From a virus, in the IMG/VR virus record IMGVR_UViG_3300042326_000155, positions 1 through 35,626 of that record: a stretch of 35,626 nucleotides of DNA. One strand, given 5' to 3'. Of the stretch, positions 1 through 35,626 are shown in pieces; positions within the stretch are counted from its first letter, which is position 1; each line of letters starts with the position of its first letter. Position numbers and translations under genes: made by a program. The notes under the pieces were generated by a model. That model did no database searches, was not told the origin of the DNA, and was given only the letters and a program-made list of their open reading frames with translations.

Positions 1-212
1 CACCTGGCACAACTCCTTCTACTTCTTTGGTCTTGCTCCAAGCCCAGCAGAAGCTGAACGAGAACGCAGCTGTGATGTCCCCACGTTACGCTACCGTGAA
101 CCCTGCTGCTAACGCTGGCTTGGTTGAAGGCATGAAAGGTCTGTTCAATCCTACAGACACTATCAGCAAGCAATTCAAGAACGGCATGATGGGCACTGGC
201 GTGTTGGGCTTT
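1..212. repeat. Contig-end overlap, left copy
   Basis: Positions 1-212 match 35415-35626 at 205 of 212 bases. The seven differences are at 11, 38, 62, 80, 104, 107 and 110; all fall on third codon positions of the coat gene and none changes the protein. This is the signature of two natural variants of one gene rather than sequencing error. It shows the molecule is circular or circularly permuted in assembly. Confidence 0.9.
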
Positions 213-806
213 GACGAGATCAACATGTCTCAGTCTATCAAGCAATTCACAACTGGCTCTCGCGTTGCCACCGGCAACTCTGTGACTACCACTGTGTCTT
301 CTGAAGGCGCTGCAAGCATTGCTTTGACCATCGGCTCTGGCCTGACAGTTAAAGCCGGTGACGTGTTTACTGTTGCTGATTGCTTCGCTGTGAACCCACA
401 GACCCGTGAATCCACTGGTTCGTTGTTCCAGTTCGTTGCTTTGGCTGACGCCACTGCCAGCGGCACTGCAATCGTTGTGACCGTTGCTCCTATTTACACC
501 GCCAACAACGCTTTGGCCACCGTTGACAGCTTCCCTGTCGCCGGTAAGGCTGTCGTGTTCGTGGGTGCTGCATCTAGCCAGTACGCTCAGAACTTGGTCT
601 ATCACAAAGACGCCATCACTTTCGCAACTGCTGACTTGCTGTTGCCACAAGGTGTTGACATGGCTGCTCGTGCCGTTCACAACGGTATCAGCTTGCGTGT
701 GGTTCGCCAGTACGATATTAACAACGACCGTATGCCTTGCCGTATTGACGTTTTGTACGGCTTCAGCACGATCCGTCCACAAATGGCCTGCCGTATCTGG
801 GGCTAA
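1..806 (+). CDS. Major capsid (coat) protein, P22 gp5-like, 3' part
   Basis: This is the C-terminal two thirds of the coat protein. The reading frame is open from position 3, so the start lies outside this end; the 5' part is at 35018-35626. Joining the two through their shared 212 bases gives a 400-residue protein, close to the P22 coat (about 430). The family forms the HK97-fold icosahedral shell around a scaffold. The assignment rests on the P22-like order portal, scaffold, coat, gp4, gp10 and on the N-terminal part of the protein. A UUCG-loop hairpin follows the stop. The apparent start at TTG 27 is not real. Confidence 0.9.
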   Translation, partial: PGTTPSTSLVLLQAQQKLNENAAVMSPRYATVNPAANAGLVEGMKGLFNPTDTISKQFKNGMMGTGVLGFDEINMSQSIKQFTTGSRVATGNSVTTTVSSEGAASIALTIGSGLTVKAGDVFTVADCFAVNPQTRESTGSLFQFVALADATASGTAIVVTVAPIYTANNALATVDSFPVAGKAVVFVGAASSQYAQNLVYHKDAITFATADLLLPQGVDMAARAVHNGISLRVVRQYDINNDRMPCRIDVLYGFSTIRPQMACRIWG

Positions 807-859: not shown

Positions 860-1267
860 ATGGCATTACCTAATGGCGCAGGCGGTTACCAAGTTGGTGA
901 CGGCAATCTGACAGAAGCAGTACTCGGCGTACAAACTATTCCCGCAACCTTGACTGGCGACACTACGTTGACCGCTGCTCAAGTGGCTGTTGGTTTGGTT
1001 GTTTGCAACAAAGGTAGCGATGCTACATTGACCGTGACTCTGCCCACAGCAGCGTTGCTCGATGCAGCCGTTCCTAGCGCAAAAGTTGGTTCAGCTTTTG
1101 AGTTGACAATCTGCAACAACAACAACACTGGCTCTTCGTCTACCGTTCCTGTCACCACAGGCACTGGTATCACGATCTTTGGCTCTGTGACTGTTCCACG
1201 TTTCGGCGCACACACATACCGTTTTGTGCGTACCGGCGACGCTGCCTACTCGGCTTTCTTGAAGTAA
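860..1267 (+). CDS. Unrecognised virion-cluster protein, beta-rich, possible capsid decoration protein
   Basis: 135 residues, lying between two UUCG hairpins directly after the coat gene. The start at 860 has an AAGGAAA ribosome site 6-10 bases upstream. The protein is rich in Thr, Val, Gly and Ala with alternating hydrophobic positions, suggesting a beta-sandwich. Its middle (around residue 55, TLTVTLPTA) resembles the beta domain at the end of the gene at 3999-4694 (CTVTLPSAS). Its place after the coat gene suggests a capsid-surface or head-completion protein, but that is inference. No signal peptide, membrane segment or catalytic motif is visible. Confidence 0.8.
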   Translation: MALPNGAGGYQVGDGNLTEAVLGVQTIPATLTGDTTLTAAQVAVGLVVCNKGSDATLTVTLPTAALLDAAVPSAKVGSAFELTICNNNNTGSSSTVPVTTGTGITIFGSVTVPRFGAHTYRFVRTGDAAYSAFLK

Positions 1268-1306: not shown

Positions 1307-1630
1307 ATGCCTACAAACACCAAACCGATTGGCGTTGCGTACGAAGACCAGCAATTAGATGGCGCTGTTATGGGTGCTAGTGGCGGTACTGCTGGATTTT
1401 TTGGTGCAACTCCTGTTACGAAGCCTGCGGCTAATACCGCTGCTTTGACCACAATCACGTCTACTGCACCTGGCACGCCAGATTATGCAATTCAAGACTT
1501 GACATCTACCACGCCTTTTGGTTTTGTTACTAAAGATGAGGGTAACTCTGTGTTGTCAGTAGTTGCAAATTTGCAAACGCGAGTGGCGCAACTTGAAGCC
1601 AAGTTGCAAACACTCGGCCTGTTGGCCTAA
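1307..1630 (+). CDS. Probable virion fibre-like protein with the NTKPIGVAYEDQ N-terminal module
   Basis: 107 residues. The start at 1307 is chosen for the AAAGGA site six bases upstream. Residues 4-15 read NTKPIGVAYEDQ and are identical to residues 3-14 of the protein at 27296-27724; the DNA of the two stretches matches at 31 of 36 bases. A Gly/Ala/Thr/Pro-rich middle follows, then a C-terminal stretch with heptad spacing (from about residue 80, SVLSVVANLQ to VAQLEAKLQ) that should form a coiled coil. A short docking peptide plus an oligomerising tail suggests a small fibre or decoration protein on the head; this is inference from context only. Confidence 0.8.
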   Translation: MPTNTKPIGVAYEDQQLDGAVMGASGGTAGFFGATPVTKPAANTAALTTITSTAPGTPDYAIQDLTSTTPFGFVTKDEGNSVLSVVANLQTRVAQLEAKLQTLGLLA

Positions 1631-1853: not shown

Positions 1854-2567
1854 ATGACAACGTACACCGCTGGCCAACAAATTGAACGTGCCCTTCGGCT
1901 TCTCGGTGTGCTTGCTGAAGGCGAAACGCCCTCCGCTGCTACTTCTCAAGACGCCTTGATGGCGCTAAATCAGATGATCGACTCGTGGAATACCGAGCGT
2001 CTGTCAGTTTTCTCCACGCAAGATCAAATCTTCACATGGCCAGCAGGCTTCATTAGCCGCACCCTTGGCCCGTCTGGTGACTTTATTGGCCTTCGCCCTA
2101 TCTTGCTTGACGATGCTACATACTTCAAAGCGGCAAATAACGTGTCGTATGGCATCAAAATGATTAACCAACAGCAGTACAACGGTATTGCTGTTAAGAC
2201 CGTAACGTCCACTTACCCACAAGTCATGTGGGTCAACATGACGTTCCCCAACATTGAGATATACCTCTACCCACGCCCTACGCAGGATTTAGAGTTTCAC
2301 TTTGTGTCGGTTCAAGAGTTGAACAACCCCGCCAACTTGTCCACGATTTTGTACTACCCACCAGGCTATCTGCGTGCGTTTACTTACAACTTGGCCATGG
2401 AGTTTGCTCCTGAGTTTGGCGTTGAGCCAAGCCCACAAGTGCAGCGCATCGCCATGACTTCTAAGCGTGACTTGAAGCGCATTAACAACCCAGATGACGT
2501 GATGGCGCTGCCTTACGCATTGGTGGCCAACCGCCAGCGTTTCAACATCTATGCCGGTAACTATTGA
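1854..2567 (+). CDS. Tail accessory factor / head-tail adaptor, P22 gp4-like
   Basis: 237 residues. The N-terminal third (AGQQIERALRLLGV, then DALMALNQMIDSWNTERLSVF) is the helical pattern seen in gp4-type head-tail adaptors, which bind below the portal ring and close the packaged head. The family member in P22 is shorter (about 166 residues); the extra length here lies in the beta-rich middle (about residues 80-160). It is followed by the gp10-like gene with a one-base TGATG overlap, exactly the P22 order. The identification combines sequence pattern and gene order. Confidence 0.82.
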   Translation: MTTYTAGQQIERALRLLGVLAEGETPSAATSQDALMALNQMIDSWNTERLSVFSTQDQIFTWPAGFISRTLGPSGDFIGLRPILLDDATYFKAANNVSYGIKMINQQQYNGIAVKTVTSTYPQVMWVNMTFPNIEIYLYPRPTQDLEFHFVSVQELNNPANLSTILYYPPGYLRAFTYNLAMEFAPEFGVEPSPQVQRIAMTSKRDLKRINNPDDVMALPYALVANRQRFNIYAGNY

Positions 2568-24943: not shown

Positions 24944-25381
24944 ATGTTCCACTCGATTCCATTTACACCGCGCAAGGTCGAAGCGACCGAATCGCGTCTG
25001 AAGGCTGTCTATGACGCAGCCAAGCTCGGCCTCAAAGGCGACGCACTCGCGCTGGCCGCAGGCATGCTGCCCCAAGAATACCGACAACTCACGCAACTTG
25101 ACCCCGTGGTAGAACTGGCCGCGCAAAAGGGCAAGGCAGACGCTGAGATAGAGATGTCCCGAGTCTTACACCAAGCGGCCAACAACGGCGACGCTAAATC
25201 AGCGCTTGAGATCCTCAAACATCAACACGGCTGGGTGGCCAAGCAGGCTATCTCGGTTGAGGTCGACCAGCGCATCTCCATCACTGGCGCACTGGCCGAG
25301 GCGCAGAAGAGGGCGCTGACAGTCGAAGACGCAAACATCATAGAAGCCCAAGTCCATGCAATCGACCATATACAGCGCTGA
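24944..25381 (+). CDS. terS: Terminase small subunit
   Basis: 145 residues. The N-terminal half has a helix-turn-helix pattern (AAKLGLKGDALALAAGMLPQEYRQL, about residues 26-50), the centre is helical (QKGKADAEIEMSRVLHQAANNGD) and the C-terminal part should bind the large subunit. The protein recognises the packaging site and regulates headful cutting. AGGAAG lies five bases before the ATG. The large subunit gene begins 26 bases before its stop, as expected for a coupled pair. Confidence 0.82.
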   Translation: MFHSIPFTPRKVEATESRLKAVYDAAKLGLKGDALALAAGMLPQEYRQLTQLDPVVELAAQKGKADAEIEMSRVLHQAANNGDAKSALEILKHQHGWVAKQAISVEVDQRISITGALAEAQKRALTVEDANIIEAQVHAIDHIQR

Positions 25382-26882
25382 AGACGAACAGGAACTCATG
25401 GCGCGGCTATGGGCGCCAGCAATCAAGGATAACCCACTGGCGTTCGTCATGTTCGCGTTTCCTTGGGGTCAGCCTGGCACACCACTGGAACATTTCAAAG
25501 GCCCACGCAAATGGCAGCGCGAGGTACTTCAGCAGATCGCCACGCACATACAAGAGAACAAAGGCAAGGTCGACTTCAACACCTTACGGCACGCTGTCTC
25601 ATCTGGCCGTGGTATTGGTAAGTCAGCCCTAGTCTCATGGATCACGATTTGGATGCTTACAACCCGCATCGGCTCCACGACCATCATCTCGGCCAACAGT
25701 GAGTCTCAGCTCCGGTCGGTCACATGGGCTGAGATTACCAAGTGGCTGGCGACTGCCATCAACAGCCATTGGTTTGAAGTGTCGGCCACCAGACTGATGC
25801 CCGCCAAGTGGCTCACGGAATTAGTCGAGCGTGATCTTAAGAAGGGCACACGCTACTGGGGCGTTGAGGGGCGGCTGTGGTCAGCGGAGAATCCCGACGC
25901 TTACGCGGGTGTCCACAATTTTGACGGTGTGCTGGTCGTGTTCGACGAGGCGTCTGGTATTGACGACAGCATCTGGGCGGTAACAAGCGGATTCTTTACA
26001 GAGAACACGCCTAACAGGTTTTGGATGGCGTTCTCCAACCCGCGCCGCAACACGGGGTACTTCTACGAGTGCTTTAACAGCAAAAGGGAGTTCTGGTCAA
26101 CCAAGGTGGTGGACGCGCGCACGGTCGAGGGGACGGACAAGCAGGTCTATCAGCAGATCATCGACGAATACGGCCCTGAGTCATCCCAAGCGCACGTCGA
26201 GGTCTACGGTCAGTTTCCGTCTGAGGGCGACGATCAGTTCATCTCGGCCTTGTTGGTTGACGAGGCTATGAAGCGGCCCAAGTACAAAGACCAAAGTGCC
26301 CCAATAGTGATTGGCGTTGACCCCGCACGCTTTGGCGCGGATGCGACAGTCATCGCTATTAGGCAAGGACGGGACATTATCTCGATACAACGCCATCGGG
26401 GCGACGACACTATGACGGTGGTCGGGCATGTGATCGAGGCGATTGAAGAGTACAAGCCAACTCTGGTCGTGATTGACGAGGGTGGGCTGGGCGCAGGCAT
26501 TGTGGATCGGCTCAAGGAGCAGCGCTACAAGGTCAAGGGCATCAACTTTGGTAATAAGTCAACGAACCCCATCATGTACGGCAACAAAAGGGCTGAAATG
26601 TGGGGCAAAATGAAAGATTGGTTGAAAACAGCCTCAATTCCGCTTGACAGGTTCCTGAAAACTGATCTAATTTCGCCTATGATGAAGCCCGACTCCAAGG
26701 GTACTATTTTCTTGGAGTCGAAAAAGGACATGAAGGCGCGCGGTTTGGCGTCACCAGACGCGGCTGACGCGATCTGCGTGACTTTTGCCTTCGCCGTGGC
26801 CCACCGTGAGGCGCGTGAACCCACGCAGCGCCGCACATACAGTGATCGAAGCGTGGTTGCAACTTCTTGGATGGGGTCGTGA
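25356..26882 (+). CDS. terL: Terminase large subunit, ATPase and nuclease
   Basis: 508 residues (P22 gp2 has 499). Walker A is SSGRGIGKS (Lys89), Walker B is VVFDEAS (Asp197, Glu198). The RNase H-like nuclease has Asp322 (GVDPARFGADAT), Asp374 (VVIDEGGLGAG) and Asp468/Asp471 (SPDAADAI). The protein pumps DNA into the prohead through the portal and cuts it when the head is full. Its type is in keeping with circularly permuted genomes and the end overlap seen here. Its stop overlaps the next gene by TGATG. Confidence 0.95.
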   Translation: MQSTIYSAEDEQELMARLWAPAIKDNPLAFVMFAFPWGQPGTPLEHFKGPRKWQREVLQQIATHIQENKGKVDFNTLRHAVSSGRGIGKSALVSWITIWMLTTRIGSTTIISANSESQLRSVTWAEITKWLATAINSHWFEVSATRLMPAKWLTELVERDLKKGTRYWGVEGRLWSAENPDAYAGVHNFDGVLVVFDEASGIDDSIWAVTSGFFTENTPNRFWMAFSNPRRNTGYFYECFNSKREFWSTKVVDARTVEGTDKQVYQQIIDEYGPESSQAHVEVYGQFPSEGDDQFISALLVDEAMKRPKYKDQSAPIVIGVDPARFGADATVIAIRQGRDIISIQRHRGDDTMTVVGHVIEAIEEYKPTLVVIDEGGLGAGIVDRLKEQRYKVKGINFGNKSTNPIMYGNKRAEMWGKMKDWLKTASIPLDRFLKTDLISPMMKPDSKGTIFLESKKDMKARGLASPDAADAICVTFAFAVAHREAREPTQRRTYSDRSVVATSWMGS

Positions 26883-27295: not shown

Positions 27296-27724
27296 ATGGC
27301 AAATACCAAACCCATTGGCGTGGCATACGAAGACCAAAACATCATTGGTGCTGATATTGTTCAAGCTACCAACATTGCCACCACTGGCACAATTGGCTAT
27401 GCGGCTGGTGCATACGACACCGTAACGCAGACCAACAACAAGACTACAGCAGTCACGATCAACACGCCTTCTGGCCAGATCATCACGGCTAACGCGCAGA
27501 TGGCCCCTAGCGCCAATGCGGTGTTTGTGGTCAATTGCAGCACAGTCAGCACCAAAGACGTGGTGGTAATCAGTGTGGCTTCTGGCGGCACTTTGGGTGC
27601 ATACAACGTGTTCATTGTGGCCGTTAGCAATGGCTCGTTCACGGTAGAACTCAAAAACGTGACCAACAATGCGTACAGTGAAGCTATTCACTTGAACTAC
27701 GCTATTTTCCACACGGAGACTTAA
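27296..27724 (+). CDS. Probable virion protein with the NTKPIGVAYEDQ N-terminal module
   Basis: 142 residues. Residues 3-14 (NTKPIGVAYEDQ) are identical to residues 4-15 of the protein at 1307-1630; the similarity ends a few residues later (shared GA). The rest is different: a Thr/Val/Ala-rich beta domain (VNCSTVSTKDVVVISVASGG; VFIVAVSNGSFTVELKNV) like other phage capsid or fibre beta domains. The shared N-terminus suggests that both proteins dock at the same site on the virion. Confidence 0.78.
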   Translation: MANTKPIGVAYEDQNIIGADIVQATNIATTGTIGYAAGAYDTVTQTNNKTTAVTINTPSGQIITANAQMAPSANAVFVVNCSTVSTKDVVVISVASGGTLGAYNVFIVAVSNGSFTVELKNVTNNAYSEAIHLNYAIFHTET

Positions 27725-27862
27725 ATGCCACTCGTCAAGTCCAAAACTCCTGAAGCCTTCCGCAAGAACGTCAAAGCTGAAGTGCAAGCCGGTAAGCCCG
27801 TCAAGCAGGCCGTGGCCATTGCTTACTCAGTCAAACGCGCGGCAGAGAAAAAGAAAAAATGA
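27725..27862 (+). CDS. 45-residue basic helical protein
   Basis: Starts directly after the previous stop and ends with ATGA overlap to the GroES-like gene. Peptide: AFRKNVKAEVQAGKPVKQAV then AIAYSVKRAAEKKKK, a single amphipathic basic helix pair. Similar short proteins with AGKPxKQAVAIAYSVKR are frequent in phages next to packaging genes. Function unknown. Confidence 0.72.
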   Translation: MPLVKSKTPEAFRKNVKAEVQAGKPVKQAVAIAYSVKRAAEKKKK

Positions 27863-28092
27863 AAGCACTCCAAGACTGCATCATCATTGAGCGCGATGTT
27901 GAGAAACATCCCTTGTTTGTATTGCCTGCGAACTCACAGACCGAAACCGGCATTGCCGTGGCTGTTGGGCCAAAATGCCTAGACATCAAGGTCGGTGACC
28001 ATGTATACTTTGGCGTAGGGCAAGAATTTAAACAAGACGGCAAGATGTATGTCGTCATGCGTGAGCCTCATATTTTAGGGGTTTTGGAATGA
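27859..28092 (+). CDS. GroES-like co-chaperonin, short form
   Basis: 77 residues. The match to GroES runs over the whole length: LQDCIIIERD (4-13, GroES PLHDRVIVKR), a shortened mobile loop with LFVLPA (GroES GGIVLTG), GIAVAVGP (31-38), KVGDHVYFG (44-52) and a C-terminal MREPHILGVLE (GroES SESDILAIVE). The loop and the roof hairpin of GroES are trimmed, so it is about 20 residues shorter. It could cap host GroEL to fold the portal or coat, as T4 gp31 does for the T4 capsid. It overlaps the portal gene by ATGA. Confidence 0.78.
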   Translation: MKALQDCIIIERDVEKHPLFVLPANSQTETGIAVAVGPKCLDIKVGDHVYFGVGQEFKQDGKMYVVMREPHILGVLE

Positions 28093-30275
28093 ATGATCCA
28101 ACCGGAATAGTCGCAGCCGCTAACGTAGCTGCTGGCGGCAAACCACCAAAGTCTGATTCAGACATTCTGACAACCGCCCGCGCTCGGTTGGACATGGCTG
28201 TCGCCGCACTGGCTGAAAGCCGCGAAGATGAAATTGACGATCTGCGCTTTTATGCCGGTTCTCCCGACAACCACTGGCAGTGGCCTGCTGACGTGCTGGC
28301 TACCCGTGGCGCGGTGCAAGGTCAGACAATCAACGCCCGCCCAACGCTCACAATCAACAAACTGCCGCAGCACGTTCGTCAAGTGACGAATGACATGCGT
28401 CAGAACCGCCCAGGCGCGAAGGTCATCCCAGTTGATGACAACGCTGACGTGGAAGTGGCAGACATTTTCAACGGCATGATCCGCCATATTGAGTACATCT
28501 CCGATGCTGACGTAGCCTACGACACCGCTTGCGAGAATCAAGTGTCCTACGGCGAAGGCTACATCACCCTGATGACCGAGTACTGCGACGAAAACACATT
28601 CGATCAAGACATCAAGATTGGCCGTATTCGCAACTCGTTCAGCGTCTACATGGATCCTTTGATCCAAGACCCAACGGGTGCAGATGCCAAGTATTGCTTT
28701 ATCACTGAAGACCTGACAAAAGCAGAATATGAGCGCCAGTACCCAGATGCTGCGCCTATCTCTACCTTGCAGTCCCTCGGTGTAGGTGACCAGTCAATCA
28801 GCAACTGGCTCAATGAAGACACTGTACGCATTGCCAGTTATTACTACATTGACTACGACAAAACCAAGCTGAATTTGTACCCTGGCAACCAGTCGGCTTT
28901 TGAAGGTACGCCCGAGGACAAGATGCTCAAGGGCATGTTTGGCAAACCTGTAAAATCACGCATGTCTGAGCGCCCACGGGTGATGTACTGCAAGATCAAC
29001 GGTTATGAAATCCTCGAACAAAAAGAGTGGGCTGGCAAATGGATCCCTGTGATCCGTGTTGTTGGCAACGAGTTTGAGGTTGATGGCCGTCTCTACATCT
29101 CTGGCCTTGTGCGTAACGCCAAAGATGCCCAACGCATGTATAACTATTGGGTGTCTCAGGAAGCTGAGATGCTGGCTCTGGCCCCCAAGGCTCCTTTTAT
29201 TGGCTACGGTGGCCAGTTCGAGGGCTATGAGGACAAGTGGAAGACAGCCAACACAAACAACTGGCCATACCTCGAAGTAAATCCTGACGTTACAGACGGC
29301 CAAGGCGCAGTCTTGCCACTACCCCAGCGGGCACAGCCGCCAATGGCCTCTAGCGGTCTATTACAGGCCAAGGCAGGCGCATCTGAGGACATTAAGTCCA
29401 CAACCGGTCAATATAACGCCTCTTTGGGCATGGGAAGCAACGAACGCTCTGGTAAAGCCATTCTGGCTCGCCAGCGTGAGGGTGATGTAGGTACTTTCCA
29501 CTACGGGGATAACCTGACCCGTGCCGTGCGCCATGTGGCCCGTCAGTTGGTGGACTTGATTCCCAAGATTTACGACACACAACGCATTGCTCGCATCATT
29601 GGTGAAGACGGCGAGACTAAGATGGTCAAGATTAACCCTGACCAGCCTCAACCCGTCAACAAGATCATGGATCAAAACGGCATTGTGATCGAGAAGATTT
29701 ACAACCCTGGTGTGGGCAAATATGACGTAGTGGCCACCACTGGCCCAGGCTACGCAACCAAGCGCCAAGAAGCTCTTGAAGCCATGGCTCAACTGTTACA
29801 GGGTAATCCCCAACTGTGGCAAGTGGCTGGTGACTTGTTCGTTAAGAACATGGACTGGCCTGGCGCACAGGAAATGTCCAAGCGCTTTGCCAAGACCATT
29901 GATCCCAAGTTCTTGTCCGATGGTGATGAAGACCCAGCCTTGCAAGCGGCGCAGCAACAGATTCAGGCCATGGGCGCTGAGATGGAGCAGATGCACCAGA
30001 TGATCCAGAATGTCGGCAAATCAATTGAGATGCAGGACTTGGAGCGCAAGGACTTTGAGGCTCAGATCAAACTGTATGATGCCGAAACCAAGCGTATCGC
30101 TGCGGTGCAGGCTGGTATGACTGAAGAGCAGATTCAAGACATCGCCATGGGCGTGGTTGCTGCGGCCATGGAGTCGCAGAGCATGATGAACCAGATGCCT
30201 GAAATGTTGCCTCCGCAGGAACCTATGGAGATGCCACCAGAACAAATGATGCCCCCACAAGGAATGCCACAATGA
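28089..30275 (+). CDS. Portal protein, P22 gp1-like
   Basis: 728 residues, practically the size of P22 gp1 (725). It has the typical early segment (DDLRFYAGSPDNHWQWPADV; QHVRQVTNDMRQNRPGAKV), the ASYYYIDYDKTKL wing region and the GQYNASLGMGSNERSGKAI segment. The last 130 residues are helical, ending in a Met/Pro/Gln-rich tail (MPEMLPPQEPMEMPPEQMMP). In P22 the C-terminal helices form the barrel inside the head. It forms the dodecameric DNA gate onto which the terminase docks and below which gp4 binds. Confidence 0.93.
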   Translation: MNDPTGIVAAANVAAGGKPPKSDSDILTTARARLDMAVAALAESREDEIDDLRFYAGSPDNHWQWPADVLATRGAVQGQTINARPTLTINKLPQHVRQVTNDMRQNRPGAKVIPVDDNADVEVADIFNGMIRHIEYISDADVAYDTACENQVSYGEGYITLMTEYCDENTFDQDIKIGRIRNSFSVYMDPLIQDPTGADAKYCFITEDLTKAEYERQYPDAAPISTLQSLGVGDQSISNWLNEDTVRIASYYYIDYDKTKLNLYPGNQSAFEGTPEDKMLKGMFGKPVKSRMSERPRVMYCKINGYEILEQKEWAGKWIPVIRVVGNEFEVDGRLYISGLVRNAKDAQRMYNYWVSQEAEMLALAPKAPFIGYGGQFEGYEDKWKTANTNNWPYLEVNPDVTDGQGAVLPLPQRAQPPMASSGLLQAKAGASEDIKSTTGQYNASLGMGSNERSGKAILARQREGDVGTFHYGDNLTRAVRHVARQLVDLIPKIYDTQRIARIIGEDGETKMVKINPDQPQPVNKIMDQNGIVIEKIYNPGVGKYDVVATTGPGYATKRQEALEAMAQLLQGNPQLWQVAGDLFVKNMDWPGAQEMSKRFAKTIDPKFLSDGDEDPALQAAQQQIQAMGAEMEQMHQMIQNVGKSIEMQDLERKDFEAQIKLYDAETKRIAAVQAGMTEEQIQDIAMGVVAAAMESQSMMNQMPEMLPPQEPMEMPPEQMMPPQGMPQ

Positions 30276-31112: not shown

Positions 31113-31616
31113 ATGGCCGTTGTATACCTTTCTCCCGTGGGCGGTGTTGCGGCCCAGTTCTTTACAAATACCGGCGCAGTTCTGACTGGCGGCAAACTGT
31201 ACACCTACGCTGCGGGTACAACTACGCCTTTAGTTACTTATACGACTAGCGCAGGAAATGTTGCACGCACTAATCCTGTTGTCCTAGACGCTGCTGGCCG
31301 AGTGCCAAGTGGCGGTCAAATTTGGATAACATCTGCATCGTATAAGTTTGTTCTTACTGATTCAACGGATGTTTTGATTGCCACATACGATAATATTTTA
31401 GGTATTGGCGTATTAATTTATCAAACACAAAATTTTACTGGTAACAATACAACAGTTAATTTTACATTGTCTTCTGCTCCAAGCGATGAAAATTCAACCT
31501 TTGTGTACATTAATGGCGTATATCAAAACAAAAATACATACTCTGTTAGTAGTACAACACTTACGTTTTCAGAAGCACCACCCCTTACTTCAAAAATTGA
31601 AGTAATGTTTAATTGA
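31113..31616 (+). CDS. Tailspike/tail fibre head-binding domain as a separate protein
   Basis: 167 residues. Residues 14-95 follow the head-binding domain of P22 tailspike: FFTNTGAVLTGGKLYTYAAG, then TNPVVLDAAGRVPSGGQIWI and YKFVLTDSTDVLIATYDNI (P22: GKIYIG, QPLIINAAGKIVYNGQ, SMAIYDANGS). The remaining 70 residues are a separate beta domain (NFTGNNTTVNFTLSSAP). It should anchor the receptor-binding proteins to the virion neck. Base composition shifts to AT-rich at about 31370, inside this gene, so the second domain looks recombined. Confidence 0.78.
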   Translation: MAVVYLSPVGGVAAQFFTNTGAVLTGGKLYTYAAGTTTPLVTYTTSAGNVARTNPVVLDAAGRVPSGGQIWITSASYKFVLTDSTDVLIATYDNILGIGVLIYQTQNFTGNNTTVNFTLSSAPSDENSTFVYINGVYQNKNTYSVSSTTLTFSEAPPLTSKIEVMFN

Positions 31617-34207: not shown

Positions 34208-34996
34208 ATGACTGAAGAAGTCCAAGCCCTAGCGGAAGTAGACTCCGCGCCAACGATGGATGTGACGGCCACACCTGAAGTTGCTGAAAGTACGCCGGAA
34301 GTCGTTGAGAACCAAGTTGATCAGGTCGAGGAGAAAAAATACTCCCAGGCTGAAATTGATGCGATGATCGGCAAACGCCTCGCAAGAGAGCAACGTAAGT
34401 GGGAAAGAGAGCAAGCAAATCGGTCTGCGGAAACGCAAATCGTGAAAGCCGCGCCAACTGCCAACGTTGACCAGTTCGAGTCTCCTGAAGCCTATGCGGA
34501 AGCAATGGCCTACCAGAAAGCCGAAGAACTGATCGCTAAACGTGAAGCAGCCAAGCAGCAATCAGCCGTTCTCGAAAGCTATCAAGAGCGTGAAGAGCAA
34601 GCACGGGACAAGTACGATGACTTTGAACAAGTCGCTTACAACCCCAAATTGCCGATCACAAACGTGATGGCTGAAACGATCCAGTCTTCGGACATTGGGC
34701 CTGAGTTAGCGTACTACCTTGGCTCAAATCCAAAAGAAGCAGATCGTATCTCGCGTATGACGCCACTCGGTCAGGCGAAAGAGATTGGGAAAATTGAGGC
34801 CAAATTGGCTGACGCGCCCCCAGTCAAGAAAACAACATCTGCGCCAGCGCCGATTTCTCCTGTTACTGCACGCTCCGCAGGAGCGACAACTTTGGACACT
34901 ACCGACCCACGCTCTATCAAGAGCATGACAACCGGCCAGTGGATTGAAGCTGAACGTGCAAGACAGATTAAGAAGCTGCAATCGCAGACCCGCTAA
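34208..34996 (+). CDS. Scaffolding protein, P22 gp8-like
   Basis: 262 residues (P22 gp8 has 303). Acidic N-terminal 45 residues, then YSQAEIDAMIGKRLAREQRKWEREQAN (about 46-72), a long charged helix, and a helical C-terminal end with ARQIKKLQSQTR, basic as in scaffold proteins that dock to the coat. It guides coat assembly and leaves the prohead before packaging. It stands directly upstream of the coat gene (21 bases). AGGA lies seven bases before the ATG. Confidence 0.85.
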   Translation: MTEEVQALAEVDSAPTMDVTATPEVAESTPEVVENQVDQVEEKKYSQAEIDAMIGKRLAREQRKWEREQANRSAETQIVKAAPTANVDQFESPEAYAEAMAYQKAEELIAKREAAKQQSAVLESYQEREEQARDKYDDFEQVAYNPKLPITNVMAETIQSSDIGPELAYYLGSNPKEADRISRMTPLGQAKEIGKIEAKLADAPPVKKTTSAPAPISPVTARSAGATTLDTTDPRSIKSMTTGQWIEAERARQIKKLQSQTR

Positions 34997-35017: not shown

Positions 35018-35626
35018 ATGTCAAACAGTATTCTGACGATCGACATGATCACAAGAAAAGCTCTCGAAATCCTCGAGAACAACCTTGTGATCACCCGTAA
35101 CGTGAACCGCCAGTACGACGACAGCTTCGCTGTTGAAGGTGCTAAGATCGGTTCAACCCTGCGTATTCGCTTACCCGATCGCGCTTTGGTAACTGACGGC
35201 GCTGCCTTGCAAGTGCAAGACGACAACGAACAGTTCACCACTTTGACCGTTGCCAGCCAAAAGCACATCGGTGTCAACTTCACATCTGCTGAATTGACCA
35301 TGCAGTTGGATGACTTCGCAGAGCGTGTGTTGAAGCCTCGTATCAGCCAATTGGCGTCTTCCGTTGATGCTGACGTGGCCAATGCGTACAAATCAATCGG
35401 TAACACCGTTGGTACACCTGGCACCACTCCTTCTACTTCTTTGGTCTTGCTTCAAGCCCAGCAGAAGCTGAACGAAAACGCAGCTGTGATGTCTCCACGT
35501 TACGCTACCGTGAACCCAGCAGCCAACGCTGGCTTGGTTGAAGGCATGAAAGGTCTGTTCAATCCTACAGACACTATCAGCAAGCAATTCAAGAACGGCA
35601 TGATGGGCACTGGCGTGTTGGGCTTT
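35018..35626 (+). CDS. Major capsid (coat) protein, P22 gp5-like, 5' part
   Basis: 203 codons from ATG 35018 (AAAGGA about 8 bases upstream), running off the end of the window. The N-terminus (SNSILTIDMITRKALEILEN, then RQYDDSFAVEGAKIGSTLRI) fits the P22-type coat. Codon phase at the window end matches that at position 213, so it joins the 3' part at 1-806 without a shift, giving 400 residues. Confidence 0.92.
   Translation, partial: MSNSILTIDMITRKALEILENNLVITRNVNRQYDDSFAVEGAKIGSTLRIRLPDRALVTDGAALQVQDDNEQFTTLTVASQKHIGVNFTSAELTMQLDDFAERVLKPRISQLASSVDADVANAYKSIGNTVGTPGTTPSTSLVLLQAQQKLNENAAVMSPRYATVNPAANAGLVEGMKGLFNPTDTISKQFKNGMMGTGVLGF
35415..35626. repeat. Contig-end overlap, right copy
   Basis: Counterpart of 1-212 with seven silent differences. 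After removing one copy the circle is about 35,414 bp. Confidence 0.9.

Follow-up and report, generated by a model that had tools for sequence, protein, structure and literature searches.

Receptor-binding proteins of SP6/K1-5/K1E-like phages are attached via conserved N-terminal peptides of 7 or 11 residues (PMC6872550). In KP32-like Klebsiella phages, the first 29 aa of the second receptor-binding protein form a conserved N-terminal peptide, and models place this peptide in contact with the T4gp10-like domain of the other receptor-binding protein, the first, as its docking site (PMC6872550). Here, we analyzed a 12-residue peptide, NTKPIGVAYEDQ (the module), found near the N-termini of two proteins, P0001 and P0002, that are encoded in a 35,626-nt stretch of viral DNA (the window).

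As in the SP6/K1-5/K1E-like phages, a short N-terminal peptide would be carried by several appendage proteins of one virion with unrelated C-terminal domains, as judged here from the genes. Unlike their large enzymes mounted on the tail adaptor, the carriers considered here are 69–240 aa long and not enzyme-like, and they differ further in being encoded at two separate gene sites, in belonging to P22-like phages, and in the peptide sequence. The KP32-like system shares the conserved N-terminus, the highly diverse remainder, and the fixed gene site, but it is a branched receptor-binding system with depolymerases. Thus, docking by a short N-terminal peptide has precedents in SP6/K1-5-like and KP32-like phages, and the present case differs from them in the peptide itself, the small size and non-enzymatic nature of its carriers, the P22-like lineage of the virus, and the use of two gene sites. 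The proteins also resemble phage head fibers and capsid decoration proteins, as they are small, encoded beside the coat gene, dispensable, and variable in their distal domains; unlike the known head fibers, they match no head-fiber family in Pfam or PHROG, and their place on the virion may or may not be the head.

Genomic setting and predicted structures of P0001 and P0002

The P0001 and P0002 genes flank the portal–scaffold–coat block of a freshwater P22-like podophage (Table 1). The gene order is terminase, site A (P0002), portal, tailspike region, scaffold, coat, an 860-like gene, site B (P0001), a small gene, and tail adaptor; site A is defined as the position between terminase and portal, and site B as the position after the coat gene. 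The coat protein matched the P22-type coat family (PF11651, E 5.4e-25) and the Sf6 gene 5 structures, and the portal was of the P22/Sf6 type (E 6e-40 to the Sf6 gene 3 protein). The closest named genomes were DSL-LC05, which is an assembly from a lake metagenome (PMC10611076), and ctNMl277. A GroES-like co-chaperonin gene is present in some relatives and absent from others. The gene at 31113–31616 encodes a short protein with a P22-tailspike-type head-binding N-terminus (GGKLYTYAAGTTTPLVTY) beside separate tailspike-like genes, and this region differs strongly among relatives.

An earlier note on this DNA had placed the two module genes 26 kb apart, which was an artefact of the contig cutting. 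Comparison of the two contig ends, which cut the coat gene in two, revealed an overlap, from which the contig is judged to be circular or permuted. Linear distances across the window are therefore misleading, and the 212-bp overlap places the P0001 and P0002 genes approximately 9.4 kb apart. In a relative with both module genes on one contig (G002), they are located at 2375 and 11522, approximately 9 kb apart.

Table 1. Positions of the module genes, their parts, and the neighboring genes in the window.
Feature	Position	Strand	Basis or remark
End overlap	1..212	none	205/212 identical to 35415-35626
P22-like coat protein, C-terminal part	3..806	+	PF11651, phrog_283
860-like gene, between coat gene and site B	860..1267	+	conserved N-terminus MALPNGAGGYQxGDGN, variable rest
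Site-B protein P0001, 107 aa	1307..1630	+	N-terminal module, GFFGATPV-type linker, C-terminal helix
P0001 module	1316..1351	+	NTKPIGVAYEDQ; degenerate search, DNA comparison
P0001 predicted C-terminal helix, residues 76-102	1532..1612	+	AlphaFold2 pLDDT about 79-87
Tail adaptor/head completion protein, downstream border of site B	1854..2567	+	profile match; named relatives
Terminase large subunit, upstream border of site A	25356..26882	+	gene order as in DSL-LC05, ctNMl277; conservation
Site-A protein P0002, 142 aa	27296..27724	+	N-terminal module and beta domain
P0002 module	27302..27337	+	NTKPIGVAYEDQ; degenerate search, DNA comparison
P0002 predicted beta-sandwich domain, residues 37-138	27404..27709	+	phage fiber cap- and H-type lectin-like; phrog_18251
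GroES-like co-chaperonin gene	27859-28092		directly before portal gene
Portal protein, downstream border of site A	28089..30275	+	matches Sf6 and P22 portals
Scaffolding protein	34208..34996	+	phrog_8865
P22-like coat protein, N-terminal part	35018..35626	+	continues at 3-806
End overlap	35415..35626	none	pairs with 1-212

Both ORFs and the identical peptide near their N-termini were present as the note had described, with position 1307 likely being the start of P0001 rather than 1271, as given by the ORF caller. The degenerate search of the whole window retrieved the module in exactly two places, with zero expected in shuffles. Apart from the coat gene at both ends, NTKPIGVAYEDQ was the only peptide of at least eight residues common to different ORFs in the window, and the longest peptide shared between ORFs in 100 shuffles was nine residues; a chance match was rejected on these grounds.

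Neither protein reached the cut-off of any Pfam family, and the only PHROG match was that of P0002 to phrog_18251 (unknown function). Among the named phages of INPHARED, P0001 had no match. Using a 41-residue query, one weak match was obtained in ctNMl277 (E 0.4), in which the gene following the 860-like gene was found to be module-led on reading the locus. Sequence searches of the structure databases with the P0001 and P0002 family profiles gave nothing meaningful.

In the AlphaFold model of P0002, residues 1–36, which include the module, were without predicted secondary structure (block-mean pLDDT 53 to 83), and residues 37–138 were predicted to form a beta sandwich (pLDDT mostly >90) with a fiber-cap-like fold. 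The same domain also ends long phage fiber-like proteins in BFVD (TM about 0.7–0.8, 24–60% identity) and is labelled as tail fiber in two Acinetobacter phage records. The best alignments to solved structures were with H-type lectins (such as Helix pomatia agglutinin), the R1 pyocin fiber tip, and the ends of phage tailspikes and depolymerases (such as the C-termini of Klebsiella phage depolymerases), at Z 6–7.6 over 73–86 residues with 10–21% identity, which is below the tool's mark of Z 8 and no proof of family membership or sugar binding. For the H-type lectin fold, the best values were Z 7.2–7.6, with Foldseek E > 0.01, and the likeness is only suggestive of a shared arrangement. The overall AlphaFold2 model of P0001 was weak (pTM 0.48), and too weak for a fold search, apart from its predicted C-terminal helix, which is probably a trimeric coiled coil.

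Distribution of the module over genomes and gene sites

In IMG/VR, homology searches retrieved 336 proteins related to P0001 and 204 related to P0002, and the module consensus was NTK[PAS][VI]GVA[YF]xD[PQA]. Two DNA pattern scans of IMG/VR were performed with the motif only. Among the matches listed, all 186 occurrences were within 10 codons of the start codon, 178 of them at codon 2 or 3, and a Shine–Dalgarno (SD)-like sequence preceded 163 of 185. Over all the loci fetched, at least 411 module occurrences and at least 257 distinct complete proteins of 69–240 aa were obtained, and the module was located a few residues from the start codon in each of the 411 occurrences read. Clustering of the sequence after the module yielded at least eight unrelated C-terminal families, and the stalk and tip were further exchanged inside the C-terminal groups on reading the sequences. 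Ten other C-terminal types were scanned against PHROG and Pfam, in nearly all cases without a match. The note had proposed looking for the motif across phage proteins, and it was always N-terminal and followed by varied C-termini.

The note had also named occurrences inside unrelated enzymes as a finding that would speak against docking; these were not seen. A longer pattern, run over 84,980 bacterial and archaeal genomes, matched only twice, both times at protein starts in P22-like phage loci next to the tail-adaptor region. One match belongs to an apparently complete prophage of Rhizorhabdus histidinilytica UM2, a cultured sphingomonad (L644, L645), in which the motif gene (NTKPVGVAYSD) is located at 690949–691350 of the 768,618-bp contig NZ_FUYM01000001.1. 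The portal and coat of this P22-like prophage were 66–77% identical to those of the window, and the UM2 genome had no match to the terminase of the window.

Site-B regions were fetched via the neighboring tail-adaptor gene, without use of the motif, and 62 were readable. The site was filled in 59, comprising 58 genes with the motif (57 in the first pass and L477, the motif of which was hidden inside a longer ORF) and one with a near-motif (NTKAIGVSYLDP in L533). No gene was present at site B in the remaining three loci, and none of the 62 held some other, module-less gene; therefore, every occupied site B was module-led. The three phages with an empty site, together with DSL-LC05, indicate that the site-B appendage is dispensable. 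The C-termini at this site were of many kinds and freely swapped behind the constant module: in 43 site-B pairs that were <35% identical beyond it, the module retained a mean of 8.9 of 12 residues.

For site A, 68 readable regions were fetched via the terminase, and at least 18 were filled (17 in which the motif was detected initially, and L554 on reading), so this site is optional. The beta-domain type was carried at site A in this terminase-fetched set, and a 240-residue protein not of the beta-domain type was found at site A of G030. Two different module proteins were encoded in each of G001, G002, G008–G012, G014, and the window. The modules at the two sites of one genome often differed, for example NTKPIGVAYEDQ with NTIAVGVAFEDA in G002; strict coevolution with one site was therefore not seen, nor was there any sign that the two modules of a genome evolve in concert.

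Proposed docking role of the module and competing explanations

We consider it fairly likely that NTKxxGVA[YF]xD serves as a docking peptide at the N-termini of short, exchangeable fibers of the virion. A flexible tail of about 12–15 residues would plug into a constant site on the P22-like podophage virion and would carry an appendage that is short, exchangeable, and probably trimeric, in the form of a coiled coil, a beta stalk, or a lectin-like tip. Site B would nearly always provide one appendage gene, with its C-terminus swapped by recombination and its module kept, and the optional site A would add a second, giving two kinds of appendage per virion on one kind of binding site. This reading is supported by the N-terminal position of the module, its conservation at the peptide level, the two fixed sites, the exchange of C-termini, the lack of predicted structure in the module, and the fiber-cap-like fold of the P0002 domain, and it is preferred because a conserved, apparently flexible N-terminal peptide precedes many unrelated fiber-like ends at two fixed sites in one lineage. 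From this, we infer presence in the virion, docking, a binding site on the coat, portal, or tail hub (head or neck), trimerization, and binding to glycans or the host surface. The note's own reading, a common docking peptide that would let the phage carry two different head or neck appendages, is partly supported. Counting against docking are the frequent differences between the two modules of one genome, the dispensability of the site-B appendage, and the failure to find a coevolving partner; in addition, the literature search found no virion proteomics or structure for any member of this phage group.

The note had derived selection on the peptide from the two module DNAs of the window, which are identical at 31 of 36 positions. 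All five differences were confirmed to be synonymous third positions (AAC/AAT, CCG/CCC, GTT/GTG, GCG/GCA, and CAG/CAA); this single pair lends no support to selection, which was instead borne out by 208 distinct module DNAs encoding 44 peptides. Their codon entropy was 0.35, 0.30, and 1.39 bits at positions 1, 2, and 3, respectively. The third positions vary and the peptide hardly does, which speaks for selection on the peptide; recent copying, an RNA element, and an anchor for recombination would all be at odds with this pattern. Module DNAs encoding the same peptide were identical at 30.4 and 30.5 of 36 positions within families and at 29.8 of 36 between the two families; thus, recent duplication or gene conversion was rejected, and the value in the window is ordinary for two old copies. 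All the invariant columns of the P0001 family were within the module. The scan patterns preset some of the motif letters, and their invariance is therefore partly by construction; the same motif core was also seen in the site-B set fetched via the neighboring gene. That the 5' sequence is kept as a feature of the DNA itself, i.e., a recombination anchor or an RNA or translation element, would agree with the exchange of C-termini beside the module and the SD-like sequence upstream of most copies, but it is highly improbable and already largely refuted by the codon entropy, since such an element would conserve bases and not amino acids.

A relict of common ancestry is an unlikely account of the same conservation. 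P0001 and P0002 would then be old fiber-gene duplicates with replaced distal parts, and the module a leftover shaft N-terminus without a docking role. Fiber genes do evolve by C-terminal exchange, the beta-domain family is common to site A and many site-B genes, and there is weak similarity beyond the motif ([LI]xGA; 51% over about 47 residues). However, N, G, V, A, Y/F, and D are fixed across unrelated tails despite saturated third positions, so that a shared constraint is needed, and the stretch directly behind the module varies freely. Alternatively, during procapsid assembly, the peptide might bind scaffold, coat, or portal and so bring its proteins inside the head, for retention or ejection. 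A short N-terminal peptide before unrelated passengers would fit such a signal, as would genes flanking the portal–scaffold–coat block, but the passengers resemble fiber tips and lectin-like caps and not enzymes or ejection proteins, and the annotated DNA transfer proteins have separate genes downstream in DSL-LC05; we regard this explanation as decidedly unlikely.

If the docking reading is true, the site may be not on the capsid shell but at the neck or tail, with the tail adaptor, the hub, or the base of the tailspike as candidates; we rate this possibility slightly below an even chance. Site B is just upstream of the tail-adaptor gene, and the known short docking peptides join receptor-binding proteins to tail adaptors (PMC6872550). 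However, site B is also directly after the coat and 860-like genes, so gene position does not settle the location, and the gene with the P22-tailspike-type N-terminus is located elsewhere (31113). The coat, portal, tail adaptor, and hub proteins occurred in module-bearing phages and module-less relatives alike, and no coevolving partner was found among them.

On a broader scale, the chances are about even for a universal appendage socket, in which a large uncultured freshwater P22-like clade displays interchangeable short fibers via one N-terminal plug, with one near-obligatory cassette site and one optional site giving a combinatorial virion display. If the docking reading is right, a 12-residue plug would explain how freshwater phages of a widespread group change their surface proteins without a change of the particle. 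The first 15 residues would then suffice to recognize many small hypothetical proteins of metagenomic genomes as virion appendages, and a short natural tag would be available for protein display on the P22-type shell.

The 860-like gene and distant relatives

The 860-like proteins retained the start MALPNGAGGYQxGDGN, with a variable remainder, in 166 distinct sequences, and this start is possibly a second, different N-terminal module. The 860-like protein was also considered as a general docking target, which is unlikely: in G029, a distant relative (coat 43% and portal 37% identical), two module genes are present but no 860-like gene was detected, although a very divergent copy could have been missed. 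A common partner is therefore more likely to be the coat, portal, or tail hub.

In four distant P22-like phages, L378, L381, L396, and G029 (G029:C1:25654-26515), two module genes (e.g., NSLAIGVAYSDQ and NAIGVAYEDQ) were observed in tandem upstream of the terminase.
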